Source: Planctomycetota bacterium (lineage in GTDB: Bacteria > Planctomycetota > Planctomycetia > Gemmatales > Gemmataceae). From it: 64,000 nt of DNA. The stretch lies in contig JAIOPV010000095.1 of NCBI GenBank assembly GCA_021413735.1, positions 1 to 64,000 of the forward strand, in the 5' to 3' direction. This document shows, piece by piece, positions 12,449 through 63,590 of this stretch (position 1 is its first letter; every line of letters starts with the position of its first letter). Under the pieces are notes generated by a model that was not told the origin of the DNA, searched no databases, and saw only the letters and a program-made list of their open reading frames with translations. The position numbers and the translations under genes are program-made.

Positions 12449-14314
12449 TCACACCGCTTCGGTGTTTCCTTCGCGTGCCTTCGCCTCTTCTTCCGCGATT
12501 TTTGCTGCAGCCATCGCGCGGTTGAATCGCGCCGCGAGTGGGATGAATATCACCGTCACTACGACGATGGCTCCGGCGAGCATCATGAAATACACGCCGG
12601 GATGCATCAGCGGGTAAAGGCGGGTAATCGGCGCGTTAATCAGCAAGTTGGCCATTCCAACCGTGACAAGCCAACATGCTGTCACGAAGCTCTTCATCGT
12701 CGGCGGAGCTGCGACGAACGCGAGTTCAAGCCCCGTGACCGAGATCAGAATTTCCCCGATCGTCAGGACGAAGAATGCGAGGATCTGCCACCACGCAGTG
12801 ACTCGCTCGGCAGGCGGAACCCATTCCGTATCCTCAATCGAAACCTTCGGCGTTTCCTCGTCCTTCGGCCCTTCGATCTTCGCCCCGGTCTTCACGCTCG
12901 CTGCATTCTTCTCTGCGATCGCGAGCGTATCGCCTCCCATCGCGTAATCGCCCTTCTTGAAATGGCTCTCTCGGCTCCCTGCGAGTTCGATACTTGACTT
13001 CGCAAATGCACCGCGAGATTTATCGAAGTCGATGCGTCCTTTGTCGATCACGATAGCGGATCCGTCTGTGAAGGTGATCGTGCCTCCAGTGAGTTGGAAC
13101 TTCTTGTTGGTTTCGTTGAACGTGCCGTCGGTGCCCGTTACCCGCACACCACCGAAGTCGATGGAACTTGGGTTAGCTTCTTTAAGCTTCGTTTCGCTCG
13201 CAGGCAGGATCACCTCGCCTTCCTTAAACACCACCTTGATCGCGTCCTGCTTCTTGCCTGCGAGGAAGCCCGACCCACCGAGAACCATCATGCTTAGCGC
13301 GGTCAGGACGAAGCCGGTAATCATTTTGTCGGTTGCCCGAACCTTTACGCCGCGTGCCGCAAGTTGGTTGAACAGCACCACGCTCAACGGCAGCATCGTG
13401 ACGATGAACAGGGCGTTGGCGCTCTGGAGTTGGTCGGCGGTCACGGGAACGCCAAAGAGGTGCAAATCCATGTAGGTGTCTGCGAAGAAAATCCAGGTGC
13501 TTGCGGATTGGTCGAAAATGGCCCAGAAGAACATGATGAGGATGAACAGCGAGCCGATGCTTTCGAGCGTCTTGAGTTTCAACGCCCAGTCGGCATCGAG
13601 TTCCGCCTGCGTCACGACCTTGTACTTGATGGGCAATCCCGTGACCGTCACACCATCTGGGATGCTCTCGCCGACCGTGCCGACGACTTTGCGTTGAATC
13701 GACTCTTTGGCGTAGAAGCGTTTGCCAAGTGCGAACACTGTCAGCGCGACTGCCATCAATCCGGCTGGAAACAGGAAGGCGACGCGATAGCCGTGTTCGG
13801 TTCGCAACAGAGGCACGGCGATCTGCGACATCAATGCGCCAATGTTGATCGCGAGGTAGAACCAACTGAAGGCGTTACTTCGCAGTTGATCCTGACCCGG
13901 TCGCTTCTGATCGTAGGTCATGCCGAGCAGAGTCGAGATGTTCGGTTTTATGACACCCGAACCCATCGCAAGGAGCGCGAGAGCACCGACCACCACGTAT
14001 TTGTTCTCGATGCCGACGATGTACTGCCCCACGAGGTACGGCAACGAGAACCCGACGATGGTCCAGTATTTCCCGAAGAAGTTATCGGCCAGGTAGCCGC
14101 CGAGCAGCGGAAGGAAGTAGCACCCGGCGATAAACAGCGACATGAACGTGCCGGCGTCGGCCTTGTCCACGCCGAGTTTCTCGGTCATGTACAGCGAGAG
14201 GATGGCTCGCATTCCGTAGTAGGAGGATCGTTCGGCGAACTCACCCCAGAAGAAGAACCAAAAGCCGATTGGGTGCCCGGTTGGCACCGGCGGTGCTATC
14301 GTGGCTGTGGACAC
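12449..14314 (-). CDS. POT/PTR family proton-coupled peptide transporter with a large insertion
   Basis: A 621-residue inner-membrane symporter for di- and tripeptides. Start is GTG at 14312-14314 (MSTATIAPPVPTGHPIGFWF). The POT signature is clear: FWGEFAERSSYYGMRAIL near residues 22-39, and later NAFSWFYLAINIGAL. About eleven or twelve membrane segments are seen. Residues about 353-506 are a hydrophilic, Thr/Gly/Lys-rich insertion with repeated strand-like units (VRVTGTDGTFNE, FQLTGGTITFTDG, KGRIDFDKSRG) that is not part of the core transporter. The normal C-terminal helices resume at AWWQILAFFVLTIGEILISV. It is divergent from gmhB, separated by a repeat-bearing intergenic region. Confidence 0.92.
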   Translation of the reverse strand: MSTATIAPPVPTGHPIGFWFFFWGEFAERSSYYGMRAILSLYMTEKLGVDKADAGTFMSLFIAGCYFLPLLGGYLADNFFGKYWTIVGFSLPYLVGQYIVGIENKYVVVGALALLAMGSGVIKPNISTLLGMTYDQKRPGQDQLRSNAFSWFYLAINIGALMSQIAVPLLRTEHGYRVAFLFPAGLMAVALTVFALGKRFYAKESIQRKVVGTVGESIPDGVTVTGLPIKYKVVTQAELDADWALKLKTLESIGSLFILIMFFWAIFDQSASTWIFFADTYMDLHLFGVPVTADQLQSANALFIVTMLPLSVVLFNQLAARGVKVRATDKMITGFVLTALSMMVLGGSGFLAGKKQDAIKVVFKEGEVILPASETKLKEANPSSIDFGGVRVTGTDGTFNETNKKFQLTGGTITFTDGSAIVIDKGRIDFDKSRGAFAKSSIELAGSRESHFKKGDYAMGGDTLAIAEKNAASVKTGAKIEGPKDEETPKVSIEDTEWVPPAERVTAWWQILAFFVLTIGEILISVTGLELAFVAAPPTMKSFVTACWLVTVGMANLLINAPITRLYPLMHPGVYFMMLAGAIVVVTVIFIPLAARFNRAMAAAKIAEEEAKAREGNTEAV

Positions 14315-14753
14315 GTCGTATGACCTTTCAGATATCGGAATTCGGAGTGTATTTGGGAAAGTGGAGCGATCTTAGCATCCCGTTGCAGTTGGGGCAGCAT
14401 TTTTCCCGGCAGCTCATTCGCATCGAGATGATTCCGGAGGCTTCCGTTTGGTTCCGGAGGTGGTGCGAAGTCACCGTAAGTTCATCGAGATTGTCAGCGA
14501 ATGCCGTAAGCTATTTGCCCCGAAAAAGATGCGCATTGGGAACAAATAGCCACGGATATTCTGATGGAGTTTCTTCCGGACGAGAGTGGATGGTTCCGGG
14601 TCTGAAACGCTGGTTCCGGGCCGGAAACGATTGGTTCCGGACGTGGGATGGGGATGTGACCCGGAATCAAACCACGACTTCGTTATACCGTCCGGTTGAG
14701 GCCGGCGCAGTTCGTCTTGTCACGCCGTTTGAGTCGTGCGAATATCCCGCCCC
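14315..14753. other. Intergenic region between divergent transporter and gmhB genes
   Basis: These 439 bases hold a full copy of the TTCCGG element (14570-14671), and further TTCCGG motifs at 14429-14463. No coding frame is convincing. Confidence 0.5.
14570..14671 (+). repeat. TTCCGG stem-loop element, copy 1
   Basis: Begins TTTCTTCCGGACGAG and contains TGGTTCCGG three times. It ends with TTGGTTCCGG, a G-rich loop (GTGGGATGGGG) and CCGGAATCAA, which pairs with it including one G-U pair. The same order of parts recurs at 22565-22647, 45165-45246 and 55071-55196. Confidence 0.8.
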
Positions 14754-15350
14754 ATGATACACCTCAAACCAGCCGTGTTCCTCGACCGCGATGGCGTCGT
14801 CATCGAGGATTCCCATTATCTGGGCAGCCCTGAGCGCGTTCGCCTGCTGCCGGGCGCTGCTGCTGCCATCGCGTCGTTAAATCGCGCCGCGTGGCCGGTC
14901 GTGATCGTGTCGAATCAGTCAGGCGTGGCTCGCGGAATGTTCTCCGAGGCCGACGTGGATGCCGTTCACGCTCACCTCGCGGAGCTTCTGCACGGCTACG
15001 GCGCGAAGATCGACGCCTTCCACTTCTGCCCGCACCATCCCGAGGCCGAACTGAAGGCATTCCGTATTGAGTGTGCGTGTCGGAAGCCGATGCCCGGAAT
15101 GCTCCAGCGAGCGGCCACGGAGTTGAAGCTGGATTTGAAGGCGTCGTGGATGATCGGCGACCGCGTGAGTGATCTCGAAGCAGGCGCCGCGGCCGGTTGC
15201 CGCACGGTGCTGGTGCGGACTGGCTACGGGATGCTCGTGAACCCTGCCGGCCTGGATCGCGATGCGTTGAACGTGGAACTTGTCGCGGCCAATCTCGCCG
15301 ACGCCGTGGCGAAACTGGGGTTGGCCGGACAAGCCAAACGAGCGGCGTGA
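14754..15350 (+). CDS. gmhB: D-glycero-D-manno-heptose 1,7-bisphosphate 7-phosphatase (GmhB-like HAD)
   Basis: A 198-residue HAD-superfamily phosphatase that removes the 7-phosphate in ADP-heptose (LPS core) synthesis. ATG 14754 gives MIHLKPAVFLDRDGVV with the nucleophile and acid Asp11 and Asp13. Motif II is IVSNQSGVARG, motif III the Lys of CRKPMPGML and motif IV MIGDRVSDLEAG. The GmhB zinc site is present as CPHHPE followed by ECACRKP (Cys-X-His and Cys-X-Cys). Histidinol phosphatase, the nearest relative, is less likely without a his operon. It is convergent with the Clp-type gene, only 7 bases apart, and fits a Gram-negative-like envelope. Confidence 0.9.
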   Translation: MIHLKPAVFLDRDGVVIEDSHYLGSPERVRLLPGAAAAIASLNRAAWPVVIVSNQSGVARGMFSEADVDAVHAHLAELLHGYGAKIDAFHFCPHHPEAELKAFRIECACRKPMPGMLQRAATELKLDLKASWMIGDRVSDLEAGAAAGCRTVLVRTGYGMLVNPAGLDRDALNVELVAANLADAVAKLGLAGQAKRAA

Positions 15351-15357
15351 ACGCCGC

Positions 15358-17640
15358 CTACATCGCTCGGAACACGCAGATGCCATCGACCCAGTCGGCG
15401 GAGATAGTGCCGCCGTCTTTGACGAAGAACTCCAGCAGCCAGCGAGCCAGCGGCGCAACGACTTCGCGTTCCACGGCTCGCTGCAACGGCCGCGCACCAT
15501 AGCGAGCGTCGAAGCCAATTCCCGCGAGCCGATCCACGAGCGCATCGGACCACGCCACCTTCACGCTGCTTCGCAGCAGCCCATCGCGGCGAGTGATCGC
15601 GTCGAGTTCCCGGCGCGTGATGACTTTCACCGACGCGGGCAGCAGCGGTCTGAACGTCACGACCTGATCCATGCGGTTGAAGAACTCGGGCCGGAAGAAC
15701 CGCATCGCCGCGTCCTTGTACTGCACGCCCGACTGCTCGGCGAACCCGACCGTGCGAGACTGCCCGGCTCCGAGGTTCGACGTCATGATGATGATCGTGC
15801 TGCGGAAGTTCGTGACGCGGCCGTACTGATCGGTGAGTCGGCCTTCATCGAACACGCCCATGAGCGTGTCGAACACGTCGGCCGCGGCCTTCTCGATTTC
15901 ATCGAGGAGCAGCACCGAGAACGGCTGGCGTCGGACACGCTTCACGAGTTCGCCGGGCTCGCCCTGCGGTGGCCCGAGCAACCGATACACCGCGTCGAAG
16001 CCGCCGTACTCGCTCATGTCGAGCCGCAACAATCGCTTCGATTCACCGGCCTTGGCGGAATCCTCGCCAGCCCCGAAGAAATACTTCGCGAGAGCCTGTG
16101 CCATGTGCGTTTTGCCGACGCCCGTAGGACCGCAGAACAGCAGCACAGCCGGCGGACGACCGGGATCGTTTAGCCCAGCTTTCACGGTCATCACGACATT
16201 GGTGGCAGCCTCGCACGCTTCGGGCTGGTCGATGACCCGTTCCGTGAACCACGCCAGCACATCCTCGCGTTTCAGGGTGATTTCGTCGCGGAGGAACAGT
16301 TCGGGGAGCCCGGTGCGTCGGCGGAAGCGATCCACGACGGAATCGGGCGTCACGGGCTTCTTGCCGTCGCGAACGTGGATATCGACGATCTCGCGGGCGA
16401 ACGCCGACGCCGGTCCCGGAAACGGCGAGTATGGCATGAACCGCCGGAACAGCCTGACGATCCGTTCGCCGGTGCCGCGTTCGATTTCGACACCCGGCCC
16501 GGATGCCGACGTTTCGAGTTGCTTGTCGATGACCATGAGGGCGGTTGCCCGGTCGAACGGCCGCACCTGCACAATTTGGAAGAGATCCGGCAAGCCAGGC
16601 ATGAGTCGCCTGCACGCATCGAGTTCTTGCGGCGTTGCTTCCGCGATCATGCGAAGTTCGCCGCGAGCGAGGTACGGCACAAGGAACATGGCGATGCTGT
16701 CGGCTGGCCCGAGACCGCCGCGTTGAACGAGATCGAGCAGCCGCTCGGCACACAGCACGCCCTTGAGTTCGCCGAGCGCACCGATAACGCCTTCGACTCG
16801 CTCTTCCCACTGCCCGAGGTACTTCATGCCAGCAACGAGCCGACCCGCCGACGTGAGCCAGAACCGCCGCTGCGTTGGGCCGGGTGCTTTCTTGCCGTCA
16901 ATCTCGTCACCGAGCTTCTCGGCTTCTTTCACGGCATCGACCATCAGGGTCGTCTTGCCGACGCCGGGTTCGCCGACGAGCAGGACGTTCGCCTTCTCGC
17001 GGTGCAGCTTGTGAACGAGTGCAGCAACCTCCGCTTCACGACCCCACGCACGCGCGAAGCCTTTCCGCACGGCACGATCGCCAACCGGTTCCGCAACCTG
17101 TGCGAGTGCTCGCGGTGGCTTGGCGTGAACCTCCGGCGACGCGAATTCCCGCGGCACGGCCACCACGATTTCCGAAAGCTCAACCTCGACCGGCGGCAGG
17201 TATGCTCCGAGTTGCTCGGGTGTGAGTCCTTCGAGCTTCTGCAACACGTACCGCTCGACGAGTTGCGGCAAGTGCGTGCGGTTGGGGTAGTCGAAGCGGA
17301 TGCCGAGGAGTGGCAGGTCGGCAGTTGGCTGACCGCTTTCGCGTGTGCCGACGACGACCGGAACTCGCACTTCAACTGACGATTCGGCGGGATAGAGGCG
17401 GTTCGTGCCCTTGTATTCAGGGCGAACGCTGACGGTGAACCATCGCAACTCAGCTTCGAGGAAGTCCGGTCCCTTCATCACGGCGAACTTGCGGTGATAC
17501 CAGCGGAAGTATTCGCGCAGGTCGGTGCTGGCGTCGCGTGATGTGAGCCCGAATCCGACGGTGCCCTCATCGACGGCAATGGCGGAACAGCCCCCGGCGA
17601 GGTCGCGGCAGATCAGCACGGGATAGCGAGCGGTCGGCAT
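15358..17640 (-). CDS. Divergent Clp/HSP100 double AAA+ ATPase without Clp-N domain
   Basis: A 760-residue unfoldase-type ATPase. ATG 17638-17640 gives MPTARYPVLICRDLAGGCSA; sequence further upstream does not look coding. Residues 1-190 are a unique N-terminal domain in place of the Clp-N repeats. D1 has Walker A GEPGVGKT (223-230) and the substrate-loop-like KYLGQWEER (273-281), but where Walker B should be it reads VLCAERLLDLV, with no acidic pair. D2 is intact: GPTGVGKT (504-511), [11 protein letters not shown] (575-585), IIIMTSNLG (616-624) and FFRPEFFNRMD (648-658). No coiled-coil M domain is visible. VGF at 631-633 sits where ClpP-binding loops occur. It lies 67 bases after the larger ATPase gene and is probably co-transcribed. 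Confidence 0.88.
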   Translation of the reverse strand: MPTARYPVLICRDLAGGCSAIAVDEGTVGFGLTSRDASTDLREYFRWYHRKFAVMKGPDFLEAELRWFTVSVRPEYKGTNRLYPAESSVEVRVPVVVGTRESGQPTADLPLLGIRFDYPNRTHLPQLVERYVLQKLEGLTPEQLGAYLPPVEVELSEIVVAVPREFASPEVHAKPPRALAQVAEPVGDRAVRKGFARAWGREAEVAALVHKLHREKANVLLVGEPGVGKTTLMVDAVKEAEKLGDEIDGKKAPGPTQRRFWLTSAGRLVAGMKYLGQWEERVEGVIGALGELKGVLCAERLLDLVQRGGLGPADSIAMFLVPYLARGELRMIAEATPQELDACRRLMPGLPDLFQIVQVRPFDRATALMVIDKQLETSASGPGVEIERGTGERIVRLFRRFMPYSPFPGPASAFAREIVDIHVRDGKKPVTPDSVVDRFRRRTGLPELFLRDEITLKREDVLAWFTERVIDQPEACEAATNVVMTVKAGLNDPGRPPAVLLFCGPTGVGKTHMAQALAKYFFGAGEDSAKAGESKRLLRLDMSEYGGFDAVYRLLGPPQGEPGELVKRVRRQPFSVLLLDEIEKAAADVFDTLMGVFDEGRLTDQYGRVTNFRSTIIIMTSNLGAGQSRTVGFAEQSGVQYKDAAMRFFRPEFFNRMDQVVTFRPLLPASVKVITRRELDAITRRDGLLRSSVKVAWSDALVDRLAGIGFDARYGARPLQRAVEREVVAPLARWLLEFFVKDGGTISADWVDGICVFRAM

Positions 17641-17707
17641 CGTGATATTGCAGATTTTGGATTGCGGAATGAAAACCCGTTTAGCGGCCGTCCCGGCGGG
17701 GCGGGCG

Positions 17708-20700
17708 TCACGTTGCCCGTGGCAACGCGGCCAGCGTGAACGTCCTGAAAGTCTCGGTGAACTCGGGGCGTCCCGGCAGTGGTGACACCAAACCCGTTCG
17801 CACGTCGGCCACGGGTTGCCCTTCGGGATAAACGCGGAGAATCGGCCCAAATGTGAATGGCTCCGCGAGCTGCGGTGGCAACGAATCGACCACATCCACC
17901 CGCACGGGTATTGGACCGCCGTGCTTCGGCAGGAACAGGTGCGTTCCCGCTTCGGTGAACGCCAGCGATCGAGCGTGAACGCCTTTCACTTGCAGCAGGC
18001 AGTCCGACTTTCGCAGACCGCCGTGTTCTGGCGGGAATTCACCCATTTCGACCCCAAGCGCAGCACCCCACGCCCTCTGATAGTACGCTTGGAGCAAACT
18101 GGCTGGCTGGCAAACTTCACCTTCGGGGAACCCGCGAATCCACAGATATACCGGCTTGTCGTCTGGCGGGGCGGAGGCCATCAATCGGAGCAACATGAGC
18201 TTGTTCTCGACCTCGAACAAATCGGCATCTTCAATCAGTGGCTCGGCGGTCTCCATGAGTTCGCGGATGGCGTCTTCCATGCTCTCGGCCGACCGAAGCG
18301 AGCCAAACGGCTGACCTCCGAGATGAGCGTTGGGGCGATTGTAATTGTGGGGCTTGATCGCTCTGAAACGGGCTTTGCGGCTCACACTCTCCGCTTGTTG
18401 GCCTCCAAGGCGAGACAGCTTCGCATCGGCGAGACGGTCTTCGTACGCGTTCAGCGTGTCGCCAATGCCATCGGCCACTTCGTTCAGCGCGAAATAACGC
18501 TCCTGTTCGACAGACACCTTTCCGGCGATCACGCCACCCTTCGGGCGGATGGAATCGAGAACCGTGTCAAGTTGTTCCAGAGTCGTCCATGCTGCCGAGA
18601 TTCGCTCCAGGGTCGGCATCATGGCGCGATCCACGACCGGCATGCGCTCGGCCCAACCGGGTGCCTGCACGCTCACTGACAACGCGTTGTCACTCGCCTT
18701 CACGGTGACAATGGTGAACTCGTCCGGCGACAGTTCCGCGAGCTTGCCAGCGGCAGGTTGAGCCAGTTCGCGTTCAACAGCTCGCTTCATCGCACGGGCA
18801 CCAAGCGCAGGGTCGTAGCCCGCGGAGATCACCCGTTCGAGTGCCTCGGCAGACACGTTCAGCACGCACTTTCGCTGACCGAATCCCTCGCGAGCCAGCA
18901 CATCATTCACGAGTCGGCGGGCGATGGTGGCCAGTTCCGCGCGGGTGAGTTTCTTGAACGGAATCACGCGGTCGAGGCGGTTGAAGAACTCCGGTCGGAA
19001 GAACTTCTCGGCAGCACCCGTGTAAGCAAATGAACGATCTGCTTCGGGGTTGAAGCCGAGGTTGCCTTCCGCTTCGCGAACGCCGAGGTTCGACGTCATG
19101 ATGATGATGGCGTTCGAGAAATCAGCCGTGCGGCCGAGTGCATCCGTGAGTCGACCTTCGCCCAACACCGACAGCAGCAAGTCGAACACTTCCGGGTGTG
19201 CCTTCTCGATTTCGTCGAGCAGGATCACCGCGAACGGCTGCCGGCGAATGGCGCTCGTAAGCAAGCCTTCAGGCTGATTGAACGTGCCCACGAGCCTGGC
19301 CGCCGCTCCGTACTGATTGAACTCATTCAGGTCGAACCGCAACAACCGCTCTGCTTCGCCGAACAGCGTGCGTGCGATGGCCTTCGCGCACTCCGTTTTG
19401 CCGACGCCCGTCGGACCGAGGAACAGGAACGCGGCAAGCGGTCGGTCCGGATCGTTGAGCCGAGCCTTCGCGACGCTGACCACATCCGCGAGCGCTTCCA
19501 CGGCTTCCGCTTGCCCGATGACTTGCTCGCGAACCTTGTCACGCACGTCGTCGCGGTCGAGCCGCTGTTTCGGATCGAGGAACGCAAGCGATAGCCCGCT
19601 GCGGGCCGCGAAGTCGGCGAGGACATCATCACGTGAGATATGCGGATGCTCGGCCAGCGGATCGTACTCGGCAGATCGCGTGTTAGTGGTTGGAGTTCGT
19701 TCTTCATCGGCGGTGGCGCGGATTGCCAATCGCGTCAGCACGGCGGCAGCCTTGCCTGGGAACGCGGCCGTGCGGTCATAGCGGCGTTGCACGTCGATCA
19801 CGGCAGGTAGCACGTCCAGGCCGAAATCGCACTCGTGCTTCCCCTCGAGGCGGCGTTGCTGGTCGACCAGGATTCGCAGGTTGTCGGCGTCGCCCGGTTC
19901 GCGAATCGGGATCATGTGGAACAGGTCGGCGAAGCCACGGTCGCGTTCCTGAAGAACTCGCAAGCCCTCCGTGGTGACTTCGCCAAGCACACGCACGTCG
20001 CGGCGTTCGAGATATGGCTTAAGCACGGTCGCGGCGTTGAGCGTCGAGTTCGCCGAGATGCCCGCCAAGAACAACCCGATGAGGTCGTCGAAGTACAGAA
20101 CGTGGTCGCGTTTCTTGGCGTGCTTCAGGATCGCGAGTAGGCGGCCTTCCCACTGCCCGACATACGACATGCCCGAGATGAGCCGTTGCGGCGACACCAG
20201 CCAGACATTCTGGTGCTGAACGTGAACCTGCTTGCGTTGTGCGACGCGATGGTATACCGCCTCGTGAACCACGGCAGTCTTACCGGAAAGTCGTGGGCCG
20301 CAGAGCAGCACGGGCCGGCGGTCGCCGAGTTCAAGCAAACGCGAGAGTTCCGCAACCTCGCGTTCCCGCAGCACGGCACGTTCGAGTTCGTCGGGATACA
20401 GCCAGTCGAGGCAACGACCGACGCGACGCAGTTCGCTGGCACCGTCGCTGGTCTCAGCGCCGCCCAGGAACATGAACTTCATGTCAGGCGGCTTCGGTGA
20501 CATCGCAGGCACGTTCGCCGACAGCTCAAGCACCTGCACCCACGCCTTGCCGGAGAGGTTGGTTGCCTCGGGGCGAATGTCTTCCTCGTCGTCGGCGTCG
20601 CGTTCAGCCTTTCGCCAGTATTCCGTGTAGACCGCCTGCGCCCGCACTTCGAGCGGTTCGCCGCGTGTGACCTCGAACCACACATCCGGAAGCGATGGCG

Positions 20701-21010
20701 AGAACGCAAGTCGTCGGCCCATGTGGTCGAACGCGACGAGCAGATATTTCACCCGTGCAACACGCCGACGCAGTTCGATTTCCAGGGCGACGCGGTGAGT
20801 GGTGACTCGCGGTGAGAATGCCCACGCCGCCACGGGATCATGGCGTTCTTTGCGGGCATCGTGTTCGATGAGCGAGACGATATCGCGGGTGAGCTTGGTA
20901 AGCAGGCGGTTGAGGTTGTCGTTCTTCAACTCCATGGTTGCGACGAACAACGGGCGCGCGGCGTACCCCTTCGGATGTTGATAAACGTAGATGGGAATGC
21001 GGAAGTTCAT
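17708..21010 (-). CDS. Double AAA+ Clp-like ATPase fused to a release-factor PCRF-like domain
   Basis: A 1100-residue protein starting at ATG 21008-21010. Residues 1-190 are a unique N-terminal domain (no Clp-N). D1: GPRLSGKT (238-245), SYVGQWEGR (282-290) and Walker B-like VLYFDDL (304-310). D2: GPTGVGKT (532-539), [17 protein letters not shown] (594-610), IIIMTSNLG (635-643), FFRPEFFNRLD (670-680) and the Clp C-terminal GYDPALGARAMKRAVE (731-746). LGF at 651-653 lies at the position of the ClpP-binding loop. A helical stretch (about 785-865) leads to residues 905-1045, which match the release-factor PCRF domain: VYLWIRG, then LLQAYYQRAWGAALGVEMGE, then CLLQVKGVHARSL. The tail ILRVYPEGQPVADVRTGLV resembles the end of RF1. 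The catalytic GGQ domain that should lie between them is missing. Confidence 0.85.
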   Translation of the reverse strand: MNFRIPIYVYQHPKGYAARPLFVATMELKNDNLNRLLTKLTRDIVSLIEHDARKERHDPVAAWAFSPRVTTHRVALEIELRRRVARVKYLLVAFDHMGRRLAFSPSLPDVWFEVTRGEPLEVRAQAVYTEYWRKAERDADDEEDIRPEATNLSGKAWVQVLELSANVPAMSPKPPDMKFMFLGGAETSDGASELRRVGRCLDWLYPDELERAVLREREVAELSRLLELGDRRPVLLCGPRLSGKTAVVHEAVYHRVAQRKQVHVQHQNVWLVSPQRLISGMSYVGQWEGRLLAILKHAKKRDHVLYFDDLIGLFLAGISANSTLNAATVLKPYLERRDVRVLGEVTTEGLRVLQERDRGFADLFHMIPIREPGDADNLRILVDQQRRLEGKHECDFGLDVLPAVIDVQRRYDRTAAFPGKAAAVLTRLAIRATADEERTPTTNTRSAEYDPLAEHPHISRDDVLADFAARSGLSLAFLDPKQRLDRDDVRDKVREQVIGQAEAVEALADVVSVAKARLNDPDRPLAAFLFLGPTGVGKTECAKAIARTLFGEAERLLRFDLNEFNQYGAAARLVGTFNQPEGLLTSAIRRQPFAVILLDEIEKAHPEVFDLLLSVLGEGRLTDALGRTADFSNAIIIMTSNLGVREAEGNLGFNPEADRSFAYTGAAEKFFRPEFFNRLDRVIPFKKLTRAELATIARRLVNDVLAREGFGQRKCVLNVSAEALERVISAGYDPALGARAMKRAVERELAQPAAGKLAELSPDEFTIVTVKASDNALSVSVQAPGWAERMPVVDRAMMPTLERISAAWTTLEQLDTVLDSIRPKGGVIAGKVSVEQERYFALNEVADGIGDTLNAYEDRLADAKLSRLGGQQAESVSRKARFRAIKPHNYNRPNAHLGGQPFGSLRSAESMEDAIRELMETAEPLIEDADLFEVENKLMLLRLMASAPPDDKPVYLWIRGFPEGEVCQPASLLQAYYQRAWGAALGVEMGEFPPEHGGLRKSDCLLQVKGVHARSLAFTEAGTHLFLPKHGGPIPVRVDVVDSLPPQLAEPFTFGPILRVYPEGQPVADVRTGLVSPLPGRPEFTETFRTFTLAALPRAT

Positions 21011-21098
21011 CGCACGCTCGGATCGTCACGCCGCGACACGTTCAGGTTGCACGGTGGACACGTCGAGCGTGTGGGAAGTTCGGAGGTGATGAATGAAC

Positions 21099-21135
21099 CG
21101 TTTAGCGGCGGACCCATCGGGTCCACCGCTAAACG
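21099..21135 (-). terminator. Hairpin after metK
   Basis: Arms 21099-21115 and 21119-21135 (CGTTTAGCGG...) match at 16 of 17 positions with a 3-base loop, starting 8 bases past the metK stop. It probably ends most metK transcripts before the ATPase genes, but has no U-run. GTTTAGCGG also occurs at 17672 and its complement near 48440. Confidence 0.6.
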
Positions 21136-21142
21136 TCTGCGA

Positions 21143-22408
21143 TTACACCCCGGCGGCCTTCTTGAGTGCGTCGGCCTTGTCGGTCTGCTCCCAGGTGAAG
21201 CCCGAACCCTTGCGGCCGAAGTGCCCGTGGCGTGCCGTCTCGCGATACACCGGCCGACGCAGATTCAACGACTCGATGATCCCCTTCGGCGTCAGCTTGA
21301 AATGCTCGCGGATCAGATCGACCAGCTTCGTCTCGGGGATCTTCGCGGTGCCATTGGAGTTCACCCAAATGTTCAGCGGGTCCGGGTAGCCGATGGCGTA
21401 GCTCAACTGAACTTCGCACTCGCGAGCCAACCCCGCGGCGACGATGTTCTTCGCGATATAGCGGCACACATACGCGGCGCTGCGGTCCACCTTTGTCGGG
21501 TCTTTGCCGCTGAACGCGCCGCCGCCGTGTCGACCACGACCGCAGTAGGTATCGTCAATGATCTTGCGGCCAGTCAGTCCGCAGTCGCCGTGTGGGCCGC
21601 CAGTCAGGAAGCAACCCGTCGGATTGACGTGGCAAGCGATGTCGCCGGCGGCCAGCTTCAGATTCGCGTCGCCGGGCCGGATCATGACGAGCTTGCCGCG
21701 AATCAGGTCTTCGCGTTCCCGCTTCAGAACCGGGTGAATGAGCTGGTCGATAATCATCTGGCGGGCGTCGTCGGTGAAGTAATCGCCCGTTTTCCCACTG
21801 ACCATCACCTCGCGGGTGTGCTGCGTGCTGAGAACGACCGTGTGAATGCGGTGCGGGGTGCCGTCGGCGTTGTACTCGACCGTAACCTGGCTCTTCGCAT
21901 CGGGACGCAGCCAGCCGAGCTTGCCGTTCTTGCGAAGGTCGGCGTGATGCTCCACGAGTCGGTGCGACAGGTGAATCGGCAGCGGCATCAACTCAGTGGT
22001 TTCCTGGCAGGCGAAGCCGAACATCATGCCCTGGTCGCCAGCGCCGCCGGTGTCAACGCCCTGGCTGATGTGCGGGCTTTGAGCGTGAATGCGGCAATCA
22101 ACCTGACACGAATCGGCGGTGAAGCCGATTTCTTCACTCTCTTCGCGGTTCTTGGCAACGTAGCCGATCTCGCGAATCACGTCACGCACGAGTTTATCGA
22201 CAGCCTGCCGCGTGAGGGCGGCCTTGGTGGTGATCTCGCCAGCAACAACAGCAAGGTCCGTCGTCACCAGCGTTTCGCAGGCAACGCGGCTCATCGGATC
22301 GGCGCTGAGGCAGAAATCGAGAACCGCGTCGGAGATTTGGTCGGCGACCTTGTCCGGGTGGCCCATCGACACGGATTCACTGGTGAAGAGGTAACGGTCG
22401 GCGGACAC
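21143..22408 (-). CDS. metK: S-adenosylmethionine synthetase
   Basis: A 421-residue cytosolic enzyme that makes S-adenosylmethionine from methionine and ATP. Start is GTG at 22406-22408 ([20 protein letters not shown], with the N-terminal ATP-site [20 protein letters not shown]). Other family marks are the hexapeptide-like [10 protein letters not shown] and the P-loop-like [19 protein letters not shown]. It is slightly longer than the E. coli enzyme (384) but all core regions are present. No SAM-binding leader is evident upstream. It ends with the hairpin at 21099-21135, 132 bases before the start of the Clp-type ATPase pair on the same strand, so partial read-through is possible. Confidence 0.97.
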
Positions 22409-22487
22409 GGTTTGCGTCTCCGTAAGCGGCTCACGACGGGGAAGTTATCGAACGGTCTTTATAGGCAGATTGGCGCTGTCGGCAAAC

Positions 22488-22519
22488 AAAGTAGCCCCCG
22501 GCAATCCGGGGGCTACTTT
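22488..22519 (-). terminator. Perfect 14-bp terminator hairpin
   Basis: Arms 22488-22501 and 22506-22519 (AAAGTAGCCCCCGG and complement) with loop CAAT. On the reverse strand it continues into TTTGTTTG, so it should end transcription coming from the Cys/Gly-rich gene before metK. Confidence 0.85.
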
Positions 22520-22564
22520 CCGAAGTCAACATGTGGGAAGAGTCAAGGAATCTGCGGCATATTC

Positions 22565-22647
22565 ATTGGTTCCGGACCACTTCCCCACCCCACGTCCGGA
22601 ACCAACCATTCCAGACCCGGAACCATCTCAGTCGTCCGGAAGAAAGA
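22565..22647 (-). repeat. TTCCGG stem-loop element, copy 2 (reverse)
   Basis: Read on the reverse strand it begins TCTTTCTTCCGGACGACTG, continues GATGGTTCCGGGTCTGGAA, and ends with the stem TTGGTTCCGG / CCGGAACCAA around the loop ACGTGGGGTGGGGAAGTGGT. The stem is perfect here. Confidence 0.8.
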
Positions 22648-22767
22648 TCGTCATAACAAAATGCTTCGCCCAATCTCACGACAGGCGAAGCACTTGTGAC
22701 TTGCTGACGAAACAGCGCCTCCGTCCGCGAAAAAAACAGCTCCGGAACCATTCATGCGGCAGCCGAA

Positions 22768-23517
22768 TTACTTCCCGGCGACAGGATCGCCCTTGCCATC
22801 AATCGCGGCGAACAGCTTCGGGAACGACTCAACCAGGGTCACCCCGGCTTCGACGACCACTCGCTTCTGTTCGACAACCATGCGACCATCGACCATCAGT
22901 TCGGCCTTCACTTCATAGAAGAACTTGCCAGCCCCGAGCGGCGGGGTGACGAACGATCGTTCGGCTCCGGTCAGGTTGGTGAGACGACCATCGACGAACA
23001 GCTTCGCATCGGCGGGCAGTTGGAACTTGACGTTCGCGCCCATCTTGCCGTCTTTTCCCGTCACAGGAGGGGTAACCGGCGTCGGTGTGACCGGTGCAGG
23101 AACAACCACTGGCGGATTCATGTTCGTGACGGTGCCGTACACAGCGCTTGGGCTGTAGTAAACCGGCGCTGCCCACGATGAGCCGTAGCAACCACCGCAA
23201 CCGCCACAACTGTAACCGGTGCAGGAGCCGAAGCACGACCAACCGGAGCAACTGTAGCCACAGCAGCCGGAGCAGGAGTGACGATGGCCGAACAGACCGT
23301 GACAGCCCGCGTGATGACCAAAGATGCAGTGTTTCTGCCCGTAGCACGAACCGTAGCAACCACCGCAACTGTAGCTGTAGCAACCGCCGCAACTGTAGCT
23401 GGTGCATCCGCCGTAGCAACCGCCGCAGCCGATCACAACCGGACCGGCAGCGGGAATGCCAGCAAGGGGATCCTGCCCAGGTGCTGCGAGGGCGGTCATG
23501 AGAACAAGACTGTACAT
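22768..23517 (-). CDS. Cys/Gly-rich protein with a C-terminal TIGR03000-type domain
   Basis: A 249-residue exported-looking protein. ATG 23515-23517 gives MYSLVLMTALAAPGQDP, a short hydrophobic leader. Residues about 28-120 are extreme in composition: Cys and Gly blocks such as CGGCYSYSCGGCYGSC and CSGCCGYSCSGWSCFGSC, with some His. A Pro/Val/Thr linker (PVTPTPVTPPVTG) leads to residues about 165-249, a PEGA-like domain (VKFQLPADAKLFVDGRL, then GERSF-like AERSFVTPPLGAGKFFYEV) of the TIGR03000 type found in planctomycetes. It may be a surface or wall-associated, disulfide-rich protein; that is inference. It ends ahead of the terminator at 22488-22519. Confidence 0.8.
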   Translation of the reverse strand: MYSLVLMTALAAPGQDPLAGIPAAGPVVIGCGGCYGGCTSYSCGGCYSYSCGGCYGSCYGQKHCIFGHHAGCHGLFGHRHSCSGCCGYSCSGWSCFGSCTGYSCGGCGGCYGSSWAAPVYYSPSAVYGTVTNMNPPVVVPAPVTPTPVTPPVTGKDGKMGANVKFQLPADAKLFVDGRLTNLTGAERSFVTPPLGAGKFFYEVKAELMVDGRMVVEQKRVVVEAGVTLVESFPKLFAAIDGKGDPVAGK

Positions 23518-23737
23518 GGTGTGAAAACCTCCGTGGTGGAAAACATCCGCTGCCAATCAGCGGAGCCGACCTTGACGATGGTAGAATGGGCGAGAAAACC
23601 CGTCAAAGGCAAACTGGTTAAACTGGATGGTTTGGATGGAATACGCCGTCCCTACGACCGGACCAGGGAAGTGAACGTCAAAACGCACAATCAGTCACAT
23701 GAGACTGGGGCGAAGCTCGCCAAGGCCGACGAAGAGT

Positions 23738-24469
23738 TCAATCGTGTGTCTTGAAGATTGCGAAGTCAGGCGTTGCGGCGATCTGCTGGAAGCAACCATT
23801 CTGTTGCCAGACGACAGCGTGCTGGGGGTTCGCGTACAGGATGTAAATTTCGCGTGACTGAGTCTGGTAAGACTCGGCAATCCGTTCCGCCACTCGCGCC
23901 ATGACCTCCCGCCCGAACGGGTTGAAGAAGTAGCACACCAATGGGTCATGCGGCAGTGGGTACTGCAACGCATCGGCGCAGACCAATCGCATATCCCAGC
24001 ATTGCTGTCTTTCGCTGCGAAACCCAGCTAAATTCTCCCTCGCGACTTGATCGAGTTCAGGCGAAAATTCGACACCAATCACCGACTTGAACGGGAACTC
24101 CGACGCCAGAAGGACCGCCCTCCCCTTGCCCGAGCCGAAGTCGATGAAAGTGAAGTCCTGGTGATGAATGGCGAGGGTGCCAACAAGGCGAGCGAAGACA
24201 GCGGGGTCGATGGCCCAGTAGGACGTACCATTCTGCCAAGACGTGCCGGCGATCTGCAAACTGTTCAGTTGAATGATCCCGCCGGTATCCACACCATGTC
24301 GGCTGTCGAAAGCCTGGTCTCTCTCAGCCTTCTCTCGCATGCTTCGACGCCAGGTTGGCGTGAGTTCGAGGAATCGCTGGGAAGCTCTGTTGATTGCGTG
24401 GACGACTGTTCCCCGAAGCCCCCGCCGACTGTAGGACTTCCGCAATTTGTTCAGAAGCCGTCCGATCAT
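23738..24469 (-). CDS. SAM-dependent class I methyltransferase
   Basis: A 243-residue predicted methyltransferase. ATG 24467-24469 (MIGRLLNKLRKSYSRRGLRG) is chosen because upstream sequence runs into an intergenic repeat. After a basic N-terminus, residues about 60-100 contain GTSWQNGTSYWAIDP. Motif I is FTFIDFGSGKGRAVLLAS, followed by the acidic strand-2 end VIGVEFSPELDQVA and motif-IV-like DPLVCYFFNPFG. The FIDFGSGKGR loop resembles DOT1-like and small class I enzymes, but the target cannot be told. It is flanked by non-coding repeats and stands alone. Confidence 0.82.
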   Translation of the reverse strand: MIGRLLNKLRKSYSRRGLRGTVVHAINRASQRFLELTPTWRRSMREKAERDQAFDSRHGVDTGGIIQLNSLQIAGTSWQNGTSYWAIDPAVFARLVGTLAIHHQDFTFIDFGSGKGRAVLLASEFPFKSVIGVEFSPELDQVARENLAGFRSERQQCWDMRLVCADALQYPLPHDPLVCYFFNPFGREVMARVAERIAESYQTQSREIYILYANPQHAVVWQQNGCFQQIAATPDFAIFKTHD

Positions 24470-61031: not shown

Positions 61032-63590
61032 TCACGCCTGAGCTGCTGCAACCACAGCCGGAGTGGTATCGACGGGCTTCGTCGTGTCGAAGCCGAGTTT
61101 CTTCTCACCATCCACTTCGACCACCTTCACGGTGATCGAGTCGGTCCCGTGGAAGGTGCCCCTCAGTAGTTCCTCGGCGAGCATGTCTTCGAGGTTCTGC
61201 TCGATCGACCGACGCAGAGGCCGCGCACCGAACTCCAGGCTCGAACCCTTCTCGATCAACAGTTCCTTGGCGTCCTCGTTCACGATCAGCTTCAGACCCT
61301 TTTCGGTCATGCGCTTCGTGACCTTCGCCAGTTCCATTTCGACGATTTGCTTCAGATCCTTGTGCGTCAAGGAGCGGAACACAATGATCTCGTCGAGGCG
61401 GTTCAAGAACTCAGGTCGGAACTCCTTCTCCATGCGGGCTCGGAGCTTCTTCTGCATTTCCTGATACGTGACCTCTTCGTTCTTCTTCAGGCCCTCCCGG
61501 AACATCCCACCGACCTCAGCCTGAGCAACGATCGTCTCAGCACCGATGTTCGTCGTCATGATGAGGATGGTGTTCTTGAAGTCGATCACCCGCCCCACGT
61601 TGTCGGTCAAGCGGCCTTCTTCCATGATCTGGAGCAGCATGTTCCAGACGTCCGGGTGTGCCTTCTCAATTTCGTCGAGCAGCACCACCGAGTACGGCTT
61701 GCGGCGGATCTTCTCGGTGAGCTGACCGCCCTCTTCGTAGCCGATATAGCCCGGAGGGGCACCCACCAGCCGCGAAACGTTGTGCTTCTCCATGTACTCG
61801 GACATGTCGAGCTGCACGATGTTGTTTTCGTCGCCGAACATGAACTTCGCCAGTTGCTTCGCGAGCAACGTCTTACCCACGCCAGTCGGCCCGGCGAAGA
61901 TGAAGCTGCCGATCGGCCGCTTCGGGTCCTTCATACCCGAACGGCTCTTGCGAACCGCCCGTGCGATGGACTTGATCGCCTCGTGCTGGCTGATAACCGT
62001 GCCGTGCAACTCGGCTTCCATGTTCAGGAGCCGCTTCGTCTCGTCTTCGCCGACCTTCTTCAGCGGAACGCCGGTCATCTTGCTGACAACCTCAGCGATG
62101 ACTTCTTCATCGACGATGCCGTCGGTTTCCTTGGCCTTGTCGCGCCAGTCCTTCGTGAGCTGGTCCTTCTGCTTCTTCAGCTTTTCGGCCTTGTCGCGGA
62201 GGTGAGCGGCTTTCTCGAAGTCCTGCTCCATCACCGCGGCTTCTTTTTCCGTGTTCAGCTTGTCGATGTCTTCATCGATCGCCTTGAGATCCGGTGGCCG
62301 CGTCATGGCCTTGAGGCGTACCCGAGCGCCCGACTCGTCGATGACGTCGATCGCCTTGTCTGGCAGGCAGTGCCCGGTGATATACCGTTCCGACAGTTCG
62401 ACTGCCGACTTGAGGGCGGCATCGGTGATCTGCACGCGGTGGTGCGATTCGTAGCGGTCGCGGAGCCCCTTCAGGATCTCGACCGTTTCCGCCATGCTCG
62501 GCGGGTTCACGATGATCGACTGAAACCGGCGAGCGAGCGCCTGATCCTTCTCGATGTACTTGCGGTACTCGTCGAGCGTCGTGGCTCCAATGCACTGAAT
62601 TTCGCCGCGAGCCAGAGCAGGCTTCAGCACGTTCGAGGCGTCGATAGCCCCTTCCGCGCCGCCAGCACCGACGAGCGTGTGCAGTTCGTCGATGAACAGC
62701 ATCACGTTCTTGGCGCGACGAACTTCGTTCATCACCGCCTTGATGCGTTCCTCGAACTGCCCGCGATACTTCGTGCCCGCAACCATCATCGCAAGGTCGA
62801 GCACGACGATGCGGCGATCCCGCAGGAGTTCCGGCACGTTCTGATCGACGACGAGCTGAGCGAGCCCTTCGACGATGGCCGTCTTGCCGACGCCTGCTTC
62901 GCCGAGGAGAACTGGGTTGTTCTTCTGCCGACGCGAGAGAATCTGAATGACTCGCTCGATCTCGTTGGCTCGGCCGATGACCGGATCGAGCTTGCCCTGA
63001 CGGGCGAGTTCGGTGAGGTCGCGACCGAAGCTATCGAGAGCAGGTGTTTTGCTCTTGCTGCGTCCAGAGGAGCGTTCGGAAGCGCCGCCGCCTCCACCGC
63101 CTCCGCTGCCGCTGCCGCCGCCACTGCCTTCGGATTCGTTCGGCATGTTGTGCCCCAACAGGTTCAGGACTTCCTCACGCACATCTTCCAGCTTCAGCCC
63201 CAAGTTCATCAGAACCTGGGCAGCGACACCTTCCTGCTCACGCAGCAGGCCGAGGAGCAAATGCTCGGTGCCGACATAGTTGTGGTTCAAGTTCCGGGCT
63301 TCTTCCACGGAATAGTCGATGACCTTTTTGGCCCGCGGGGTGTGCGGCAGTCGGCCCATTACGACTTGCTCGCCACCCGGTCCGTGCTGGACGATTTTCT
63401 CGACCTCAAGACGAATCTTGCGAAGGTCGATATCCAGGTTTTTGAGGACGTTGGCGGCTACACCCGAGCCTTCTTTCACCAGCCCGAGAAGGATATGCTC
63501 GGTGCCGATGTACTCGTGGTTGAACCGCTGGGCCTCCTGGTTCGCCAGTTGCATGACCTTGCGGGCACGGTCTGTGAATCGTTCGTACAT
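61032..63590 (-). CDS. clpC: ATP-dependent Clp protease ATP-binding subunit ClpC
   Basis: An 852-residue HSP100 unfoldase starting at ATG 63588-63590 ([20 protein letters not shown]). Two Clp-N repeats are clear ([20 protein letters not shown] and [20 protein letters not shown]), then a Gly/Ser linker ([17 protein letters not shown]). D1 has GEAGVGKT and [20 protein letters not shown]; a short M-like coiled part (about 415-490) contains [20 protein letters not shown] with UVR-type [15 protein letters not shown]2 has [25 protein letters not shown] and [13 protein letters not shown]. It should feed substrates to ClpP. The ClpP-binding loop region reads VGGMFREG and is not a clear VGF/LGF. It contrasts with the two odd ATPases at 15.4-21.0 kb. 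Confidence 0.96.

Follow-up and report, generated by a model that had tools for sequence, protein, structure and literature searches.

Does a Clp-type ATPase of a planctomycete end in the remains of a peptide chain release factor and, if so, from which factor do they derive and what might they do there? The question is raised by one gene (here gene B) of the 64,000-nucleotide window analyzed (contig JAIOPV010000095.1, positions 1 to 64,000, from a Planctomycetota bacterium of the family Gemmataceae). Gene B was identified from the open reading frame (ORF) list and its translation as a 1100-amino-acid ORF on the minus strand (17708-21010) with an ATG start. Release factors and Clp unfoldases are among the best studied bacterial machines. 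A preliminary description, made from the letters of the window, had proposed a Clp-like double ATPase with a C-terminal PCRF domain at approximately residues 905-1045, an RF1-like tail and no GGQ part. By anatomy and descent, the C-terminus (residues ~799-1097) is almost certainly an RF2-derived module composed of domain 1 and domain 2/4, from which domain 3 has been deleted. The gene and its parts are as follows.

17708..21010, minus strand: gene B, which encodes a double AAA+ ATPase of ClpA type; its C-terminal module is almost certainly RF2-derived and lacks domain 3 (ORF and translation; at E<=1e-100 it is matched in 22 of the 95 genomes from its taxonomic family).
20396..21010, minus strand: N-terminal domain, residues 1-205, in which no Pfam family and no Clp_N was found (Pfam; aligned in orthologues).
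19571..20395, minus strand: AAA+ module D1, residues 206-480, with Walker A GPRLSGKT at 238, a pore-loop-like SYVGQW and a Walker B that ends in DD, not DE (Pfam; motif table).
18701..19570, minus strand: AAA+ module D2, residues 481-770, with Walker A GPTGVGKT at 532, an intact Walker B (LLDEIEK) and no GYVG-type pore loop (Pfam; motif table).
19052..19060, minus strand: LGF tripeptide (residues 651-653), where ClpA, ClpC and ClpX carry the IGF/IGL loop for ClpP docking (orthologue comparison).
18164..18616, minus strand: RF2-like helical domain 1, approximately residues 799-949 (VIA-align with 1gqe, model positions 24-322 = residues 799-1097; the hhalign match to RF2 starts here).
17714..18163, minus strand: RF2-like domain 2/4, approximately residues 950-1099, a PCRF core and an RF2-like tail with D[VL]RTG, domain 3 being missing from the middle (VIA-align with 9fy1_8).

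Direct family scans gave no sign of the module. PF03462/PF00472-type profile searches with Pfam at E<=10 returned neither PCRF nor RF-1 for the gene B protein or its C-terminus, NCBIfam at E<=1 returned no release-factor match to the protein (prfB included), and none was obtained with PADLOC. Taken alone, these failed scans told heavily against the proposed domain, since no release-factor domain was seen in the protein itself.

Residues 776-1100 were then modeled with AlphaFold2 without templates on a 20-orthologue alignment (predicted local distance difference test [pLDDT] 81.5; predicted template modeling score [pTM] 0.80). Foldseek with this model returned 36 PDB chains at E<=0.001; among the 50 rows listed, 44 titles named a release factor and the other six belonged to termination or ribosome complexes (8akn, 4v63, 4v4s, 4v4r and, twice, 9d7r). 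With VIA-align the top row was E. coli RF2 (1gqe; Z 13.4, root-mean-square deviation [rmsd] 5.0 over 236 residues), aligned to model positions 24-322 (residues 799-1097 of the protein), and 45 of 50 rows were release-factor or ribosome-complex chains. Model positions 175-324 were aligned to positions 123-366 of a further chain (9fy1_8; Z 11.9, rmsd 3.0 over 134 residues), which corresponds to a domain 2/4 from which domain 3 has been excised. The predicted fold was thus that of a release factor, and the proposed loss of the GGQ part was borne out. The three strings quoted in the preliminary description were located in the translation, and the release-factor module was present; it begins at ~799, ahead of the interval first given, and includes domain 1.

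The parent factor was assigned by profile comparison. C-termini of 20 of the 22 gene B carriers (L011 and L077 were left out as cut or not mapped) were aligned and compared by hhalign, each E-value being that of a single comparison. Against 17 planctomycete RF2s the score was 60.2 (Prob 93.6, E 2.1e-7), with a maximum of 20.6 in 40 column shuffles, and against the fusion modules described below the match was also significant (Prob 95.2, E 2.7e-8). Comparison with RF1, using a set that still included L064 (L064 and L042 were dropped from the RF1 set as spurious ORFs), was non-significant (E 0.14), and comparison with the proteins' own N-terminal part scored 13.1. A first, shallow round against a mixed release-factor set had failed for gene B (E 0.44) and for paralogue A, a related Clp-like gene described below (E 0.14); the gene B match became significant once more orthologues were compared with fusion modules or RF2. 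The RF1 affinity first suggested for the tail was therefore replaced by descent from RF2, in agreement with the tree below. A D[VL]RTG tail was kept in 17 of 20 gene B proteins, at the place of D.RTG in several RF2 tails.

The letters GGQ occur twice in the gene B protein (869-871 and 898-900). They are not the catalytic motif, because both lie in domain 1 or its linker and neither is present in any of the 19 other aligned orthologues. The SPF stop-codon motif was missing from all gene B proteins (20/20), all A proteins (12/12) and all other fusion modules (29/29). Median net charge was -9.5 for the gene B module and -12 for whole RF2. Among gene B and the two orthologues closest to it, a simple Nei-Gojobori count gave a non-synonymous divergence (dN) of 0.14-0.28 and a high synonymous divergence (dS) of 0.94-1.25 in the C-terminus, which indicates that the module is maintained by purifying selection.

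A clearer form of the same fusion was found in another member of the taxonomic family (G021), whose genome encodes a 1180-amino-acid Clp-like protein whose C-terminus matches PCRF at 2.5e-13; in a PCRF search of 41 relatives it was the only protein over the cut-off besides ordinary release factors. With this protein as query, 35 of 392 phylum genomes were matched at E<=1e-100, so the fusion first noted in one gene was recovered as a conserved one with RF2-type modules. As judged from these matches, the Clp-RF2 fusion family is widespread though patchy in the phylum. The fusion set comprised 30 loci and the G021 protein (31 in all; seven matches without a locus were left out), and 29 of these had a C-terminal part of >250 residues (L083 and L100, with shortened sequences, were left out of module counts). 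All eight modules tested exceeded the Pfam PCRF cut-off, and Pfam RF-1 barely touched one of the eight, below cut-off. NCBIfam prfB matched seven tested modules with a domain-3 remnant (E 1e-16 to 7.6e-39) and two without it (E 3.1e-6 and 9.9e-10), and outscored prfA in 9/9; its best score (133.7 bits) lay far under the prfB cut-off of 370 bits. A domain-3 remnant was retained in 23 of 29 modules and lost in six. No GGQ was found beyond the first 60 residues in any of the 29, and the residues at the catalytic place were KGR, RGR, SGR, EGV or similar. The FW of RF2 domain 1, missing from RF1, was kept in 93-97% of fusion modules. From these residues, all the fusion modules examined are judged dead as release factors. 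Like gene B, a group of fusions of other families (L102-L107) has lost domain 3 of the RF2 module, perhaps independently of gene B.

In an IQ-TREE analysis of 55 sequences, from which the six domain-3-less modules were excluded, the 23 modules with domain 3 formed one clade (support 100) that grouped with RF2 against RF1 (support 100). This grouping in the tree is firm; a position of the modules within RF2 depends on a single RF2 (L141), with support of 77. On this phylogeny, the fusion module descends from RF2 or from the RF2 stem. Gene B shares with RF2 (prfB) the fold and order of domains 1 and 2/4 and the D.RTG tail of several planctomycete RF2s, and the fusion modules as a whole group with RF2. 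It differs in lacking domain 3, in being attached behind a Clp ATPase and in falling under the prfB cut-off, and no module has GGQ at the site or SPF. A hidden Markov model (HMM) of the gene B module matched 6 of 119 phylum genomes, its own included, in open frames of 1075-1195 amino acids; the five matches outside its own genome carry Clp D2, and one genome (G194) carries both module types. A scan of genome contigs with P0001 returned six loci, each with a title that names a planctomycete or a Gemmata relative.

Two paralogues accompany gene B, and one of them bears a comparable module.

L021:7636-11268 (contig C84 of the same genome): paralogue A, 1210 amino acids, ending in a module with a release-factor fold (fold model).
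15358..17640, minus strand: gene C, a paralogous Clp-like ATPase without a release-factor module, directly downstream of gene B (~760 amino acids if counted from an internal ATG, a start in line with the lengths of the orthologues; the longest ORF extends to 17895).

The paralogue A C-terminus was modeled from 12 sequences (pLDDT 82.5, pTM 0.75; L035, with an open end, was excluded), and the top 41 VIA-align rows were release-factor chains (Z 12.4-15.4), the next row, unrelated, having a Z of 9.9. By hhalign, A matched RF2 weakly (score 29.4, E 0.0055; maximum of 40 shuffles 18.6) and the fusion modules at E 1.9e-5; because the sequence match is weak, the case for A rests on fold. GGQ letters were present in two of the 12 C-termini (L024 and L031), in a proline-rich stretch or near KGGQPR, and neither was conserved among the 12. 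Over the loci read, A proteins measured 1109-1210 and C proteins 756-786 amino acids. The three genes stand in a row at five loci (L024, L025, L028, L030, where C is cut off, and L031), A also adjoins B in L026, L027 and L032, and gene C comes after B in the window and in L022 and L023, A being located elsewhere in those genomes (L021, L038 and L037, respectively). Gene C has its own TVGF loop.

The motor was as first described: two AAA+ regions were detected by Pfam (AAA_2, 6.5e-40; ClpB_D2-small, 2.8e-10), with Walker A intact in both (238 and 532), Walker B intact in D2 and an aromatic pore-loop-like motif retained in D1. The protein scored far under NCBIfam equivalog cut-offs (ClpB, 338.5 vs 1232.1 bits; ClpA, 330.6 vs 993.15 bits). 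With ClpA and ClpC, the Hsp100 unfoldases of ClpP, gene B shares the two AAA+ modules, the D2-small domain, the LGF loop and the distance between Walker A motifs (294 residues, vs 337 in the housekeeping Clp of the window); it differs from them in having no Clp N domain match, no D1 Walker B Glu and no D2 GYVG, and in its RF2 tail. That housekeeping gene (61032-63590) encodes a ClpB/ClpC-kind ATPase of 852 amino acids with a canonical GYIG pore loop. HEAT repeats occupy, in the G021 fusion (L034), the place of the 205 N-terminal residues of gene B, and the fusions L102-L104 start with stretches that, judged by eye, seem to be membrane-spanning. PADLOC matches to DolB (1.6e-23) and PDC-M37B (9.2e-23) were not taken as a link to defence, as they fall on the D2 core (residues 488-648), where ClpB-like similarity would fall. 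Rfam returned no match within 14000-24000.

In ClpA, ClpC and ClpX, the IGF/IGL loop is the site of ClpP docking. At the corresponding place, [LVIF]GF was found in 18 of 20 gene B orthologue loci and LGY in the remaining two, and [LVIFM]G[FLY] was found in 26 of 31 other fusions (the other five were not resolved). The genome encodes two ClpP genes. From these motifs, a partnership of the gene B protein with ClpP may exist, at a confidence slightly below the halfway point. It was rated lower because paralogue A is without the loop motif.

As to function, the RF2-derived module may still reach ribosomes, or the partners that RF2 has at the factor-binding site, and serve there as a tether, not a terminator. 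The ATPase, driven by D2, would unfold protein there or hand it to ClpP via the LGF loop, and the role of the gene B protein in translation quality control would be that of an unfoldase that can be recruited. That visits to the ribosome are considered at all follows from descent from RF2 and from retention of the domain 1 and domain 2/4 scaffold; the module as a ribosome-directed tether for the ATPase is, on sequence evidence, a serious candidate held at a little less than even confidence. A broader proposal is put forward more tentatively: some planctomycetes may possess a one-protein form of translation quality control, in which a Clp unfoldase is directed to the ribosome by a domesticated RF2 that is no longer catalytic, in a group in which the RqcH pathway is rare. 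In Table 1 of the survey concerned, rqcH is listed for 7 of 211 genomes of the PVC group and smpB for 208 of 211 (PMC11633108).

The nearest functional likeness is the eukaryotic ribosome quality control pair Vms1/ANKZF1 and Cdc48, in which a release-factor-type protein and an AAA+ ATPase work together; in the evolutionary survey of release factors, Vms1/ANKZF1 is described as a peptidyl hydrolase (PMC6514570). It belongs to another release-factor superfamily, is a protein separate from the ATPase and shows no homology to the present case. Section 2.4 of the same survey covers RF1, RF2, ArfB and PrfH; PrfH and ArfB resemble the present modules as specialised paralogues of bacterial release factors, and differ in that the catalytic Gln is kept and that no ATPase fusion is described in that section (PMC6514570). 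A search of its text for ClpB and for PCRF gave no occurrence of either term (PMC6514570). No description of a release factor-Clp fusion was found in the literature searched, preprints and most subscription journals being outside its scope, so a conserved fusion of a release factor with a Clp unfoldase appears undescribed, as the preliminary description had supposed.

Several observations weigh against a ribosome-tethered unfoldase. Regarding the module, two designed three-helix bundles matched model positions 22-173 at Z 10.5-10.6, level with many release-factor rows, so fold by itself does not identify helical domain 1 specifically; its assignment is supported by the RF2 profile match, which starts in the helical part, and by position. 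Of 71 RF2-conserved columns, 25 are kept in <=10% of fusion modules, including the R of GVHR and G109-G110-T111, and SPF has been lost; the loss of SPF and of so many RF2-invariant residues tells against ordinary stop-codon binding. The module also evolves faster than the motor (dN ~0.14-0.28 vs 0.03-0.04 in D2), and the plain gene B-module HMM misses the modules of three fusion-bearing genomes (G119, G122 and G129). Regarding the motor, the D2 pore loop of gene B is shortened and without the aromatic GYVG (RLVGTFNQPEGLLT), and the catalytic Glu of the D1 Walker B is missing, DD being read in 12/12 gene B proteins, with DE in 0/10 A proteins and in 0/19 other fusions in which the motif was located (of 31); the power of gene B to thread substrates is uncertain for these two reasons. 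Regarding ClpP, the loop reads [ASTP]GF in 10/10 A proteins and [LIV]GF in none of these ten, and in five gene B-type proteins of other families it reads VGF in one and PGF, LGV or MGL in four. The D2 end of known Clp rings faces ClpP, and in that layout the RF2-like module, which sits after D2, would lie at the ClpP-facing end. Lastly, none of the neighbours of 20 fusion loci points to translation.

Nearly as likely as docking at the ribosome is exaptation away from it, in which the RF2 module now serves as a protein-interaction or oligomerisation domain for substrate or adaptor binding; we regard this as a real if tentative possibility, and descent is silent on present function. Loss of the stop-codon motif and of GGQ in all modules examined, complete loss of domain 3 in gene B and in 6 of 29 fusion modules, the faster evolution of the module and the absence of any module from paralogue C, alone among A, B and C, are as such a change of use would have them. 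An interaction domain might have kept one surface; what was kept is the D.RTG tail together with the entire scaffold of domains 1 and 2/4, and the module is no more acidic than whole RF2.

Also considered, and thought improbable, was ribosome silencing or sensing, in which the dead RF2 module would sit in the A site of ribosomes that are idle or stalled, blocking or reporting them, until it is removed by the ATPase at recovery. In principle, a release factor that has neither GGQ nor stop recognition would be a blocker, and the genome retains true RF1 (L149) and RF2 (L135), both separate genes with GGQ; loss of the recognition motif should, however, weaken A-site binding, and no hibernation factor was found among nine recurrent neighbour proteins scanned. 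The genome also encodes a transfer-messenger RNA (tmRNA). Its RF2 and others of the genus (L135, L143, L145 and L146) have an unusual tail (REEREG, REERDG or RDEREG), many other planctomycete RF2s reading KD.RTG or similar.

A chance resemblance to PCRF, for which the absent family match, the non-significant RF1 comparison and the failed shallow round could be cited, is hardly credible given the release factors returned by Foldseek and VIA-align, the significant profile matches to RF2 and to fusion modules, the shared fold of paralogue A and the fusions with clear RF2-type modules elsewhere in the phylum.

Whichever use is correct, the fusion is of interest. If the module still binds ribosomes, a single polypeptide would directly couple ribosome state to protein unfolding; if it does not, gene B would be an uncommon example of a release factor that has taken on another use.

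Neighbourhoods were read around the fusion gene, which was placed in 20/20 loci; automatic ORF-based calling misses gene B of L029 and the fusion gene in L120, L123, L129 and L133. A gene set recurs near the fusion in 7 of 20 loci (L120, L123, L126, L127, L128, L129 and L134), and the six members scanned were protein kinases, some with FHA or TPR domains. Kinase-type genes directly adjoin the fusion only in L127 and L129, and with no background rate no link was drawn. A sigma-70-type factor (four loci), an HD-domain protein (three) and a methyltransferase (three) recur only among the loci of one family (f38).

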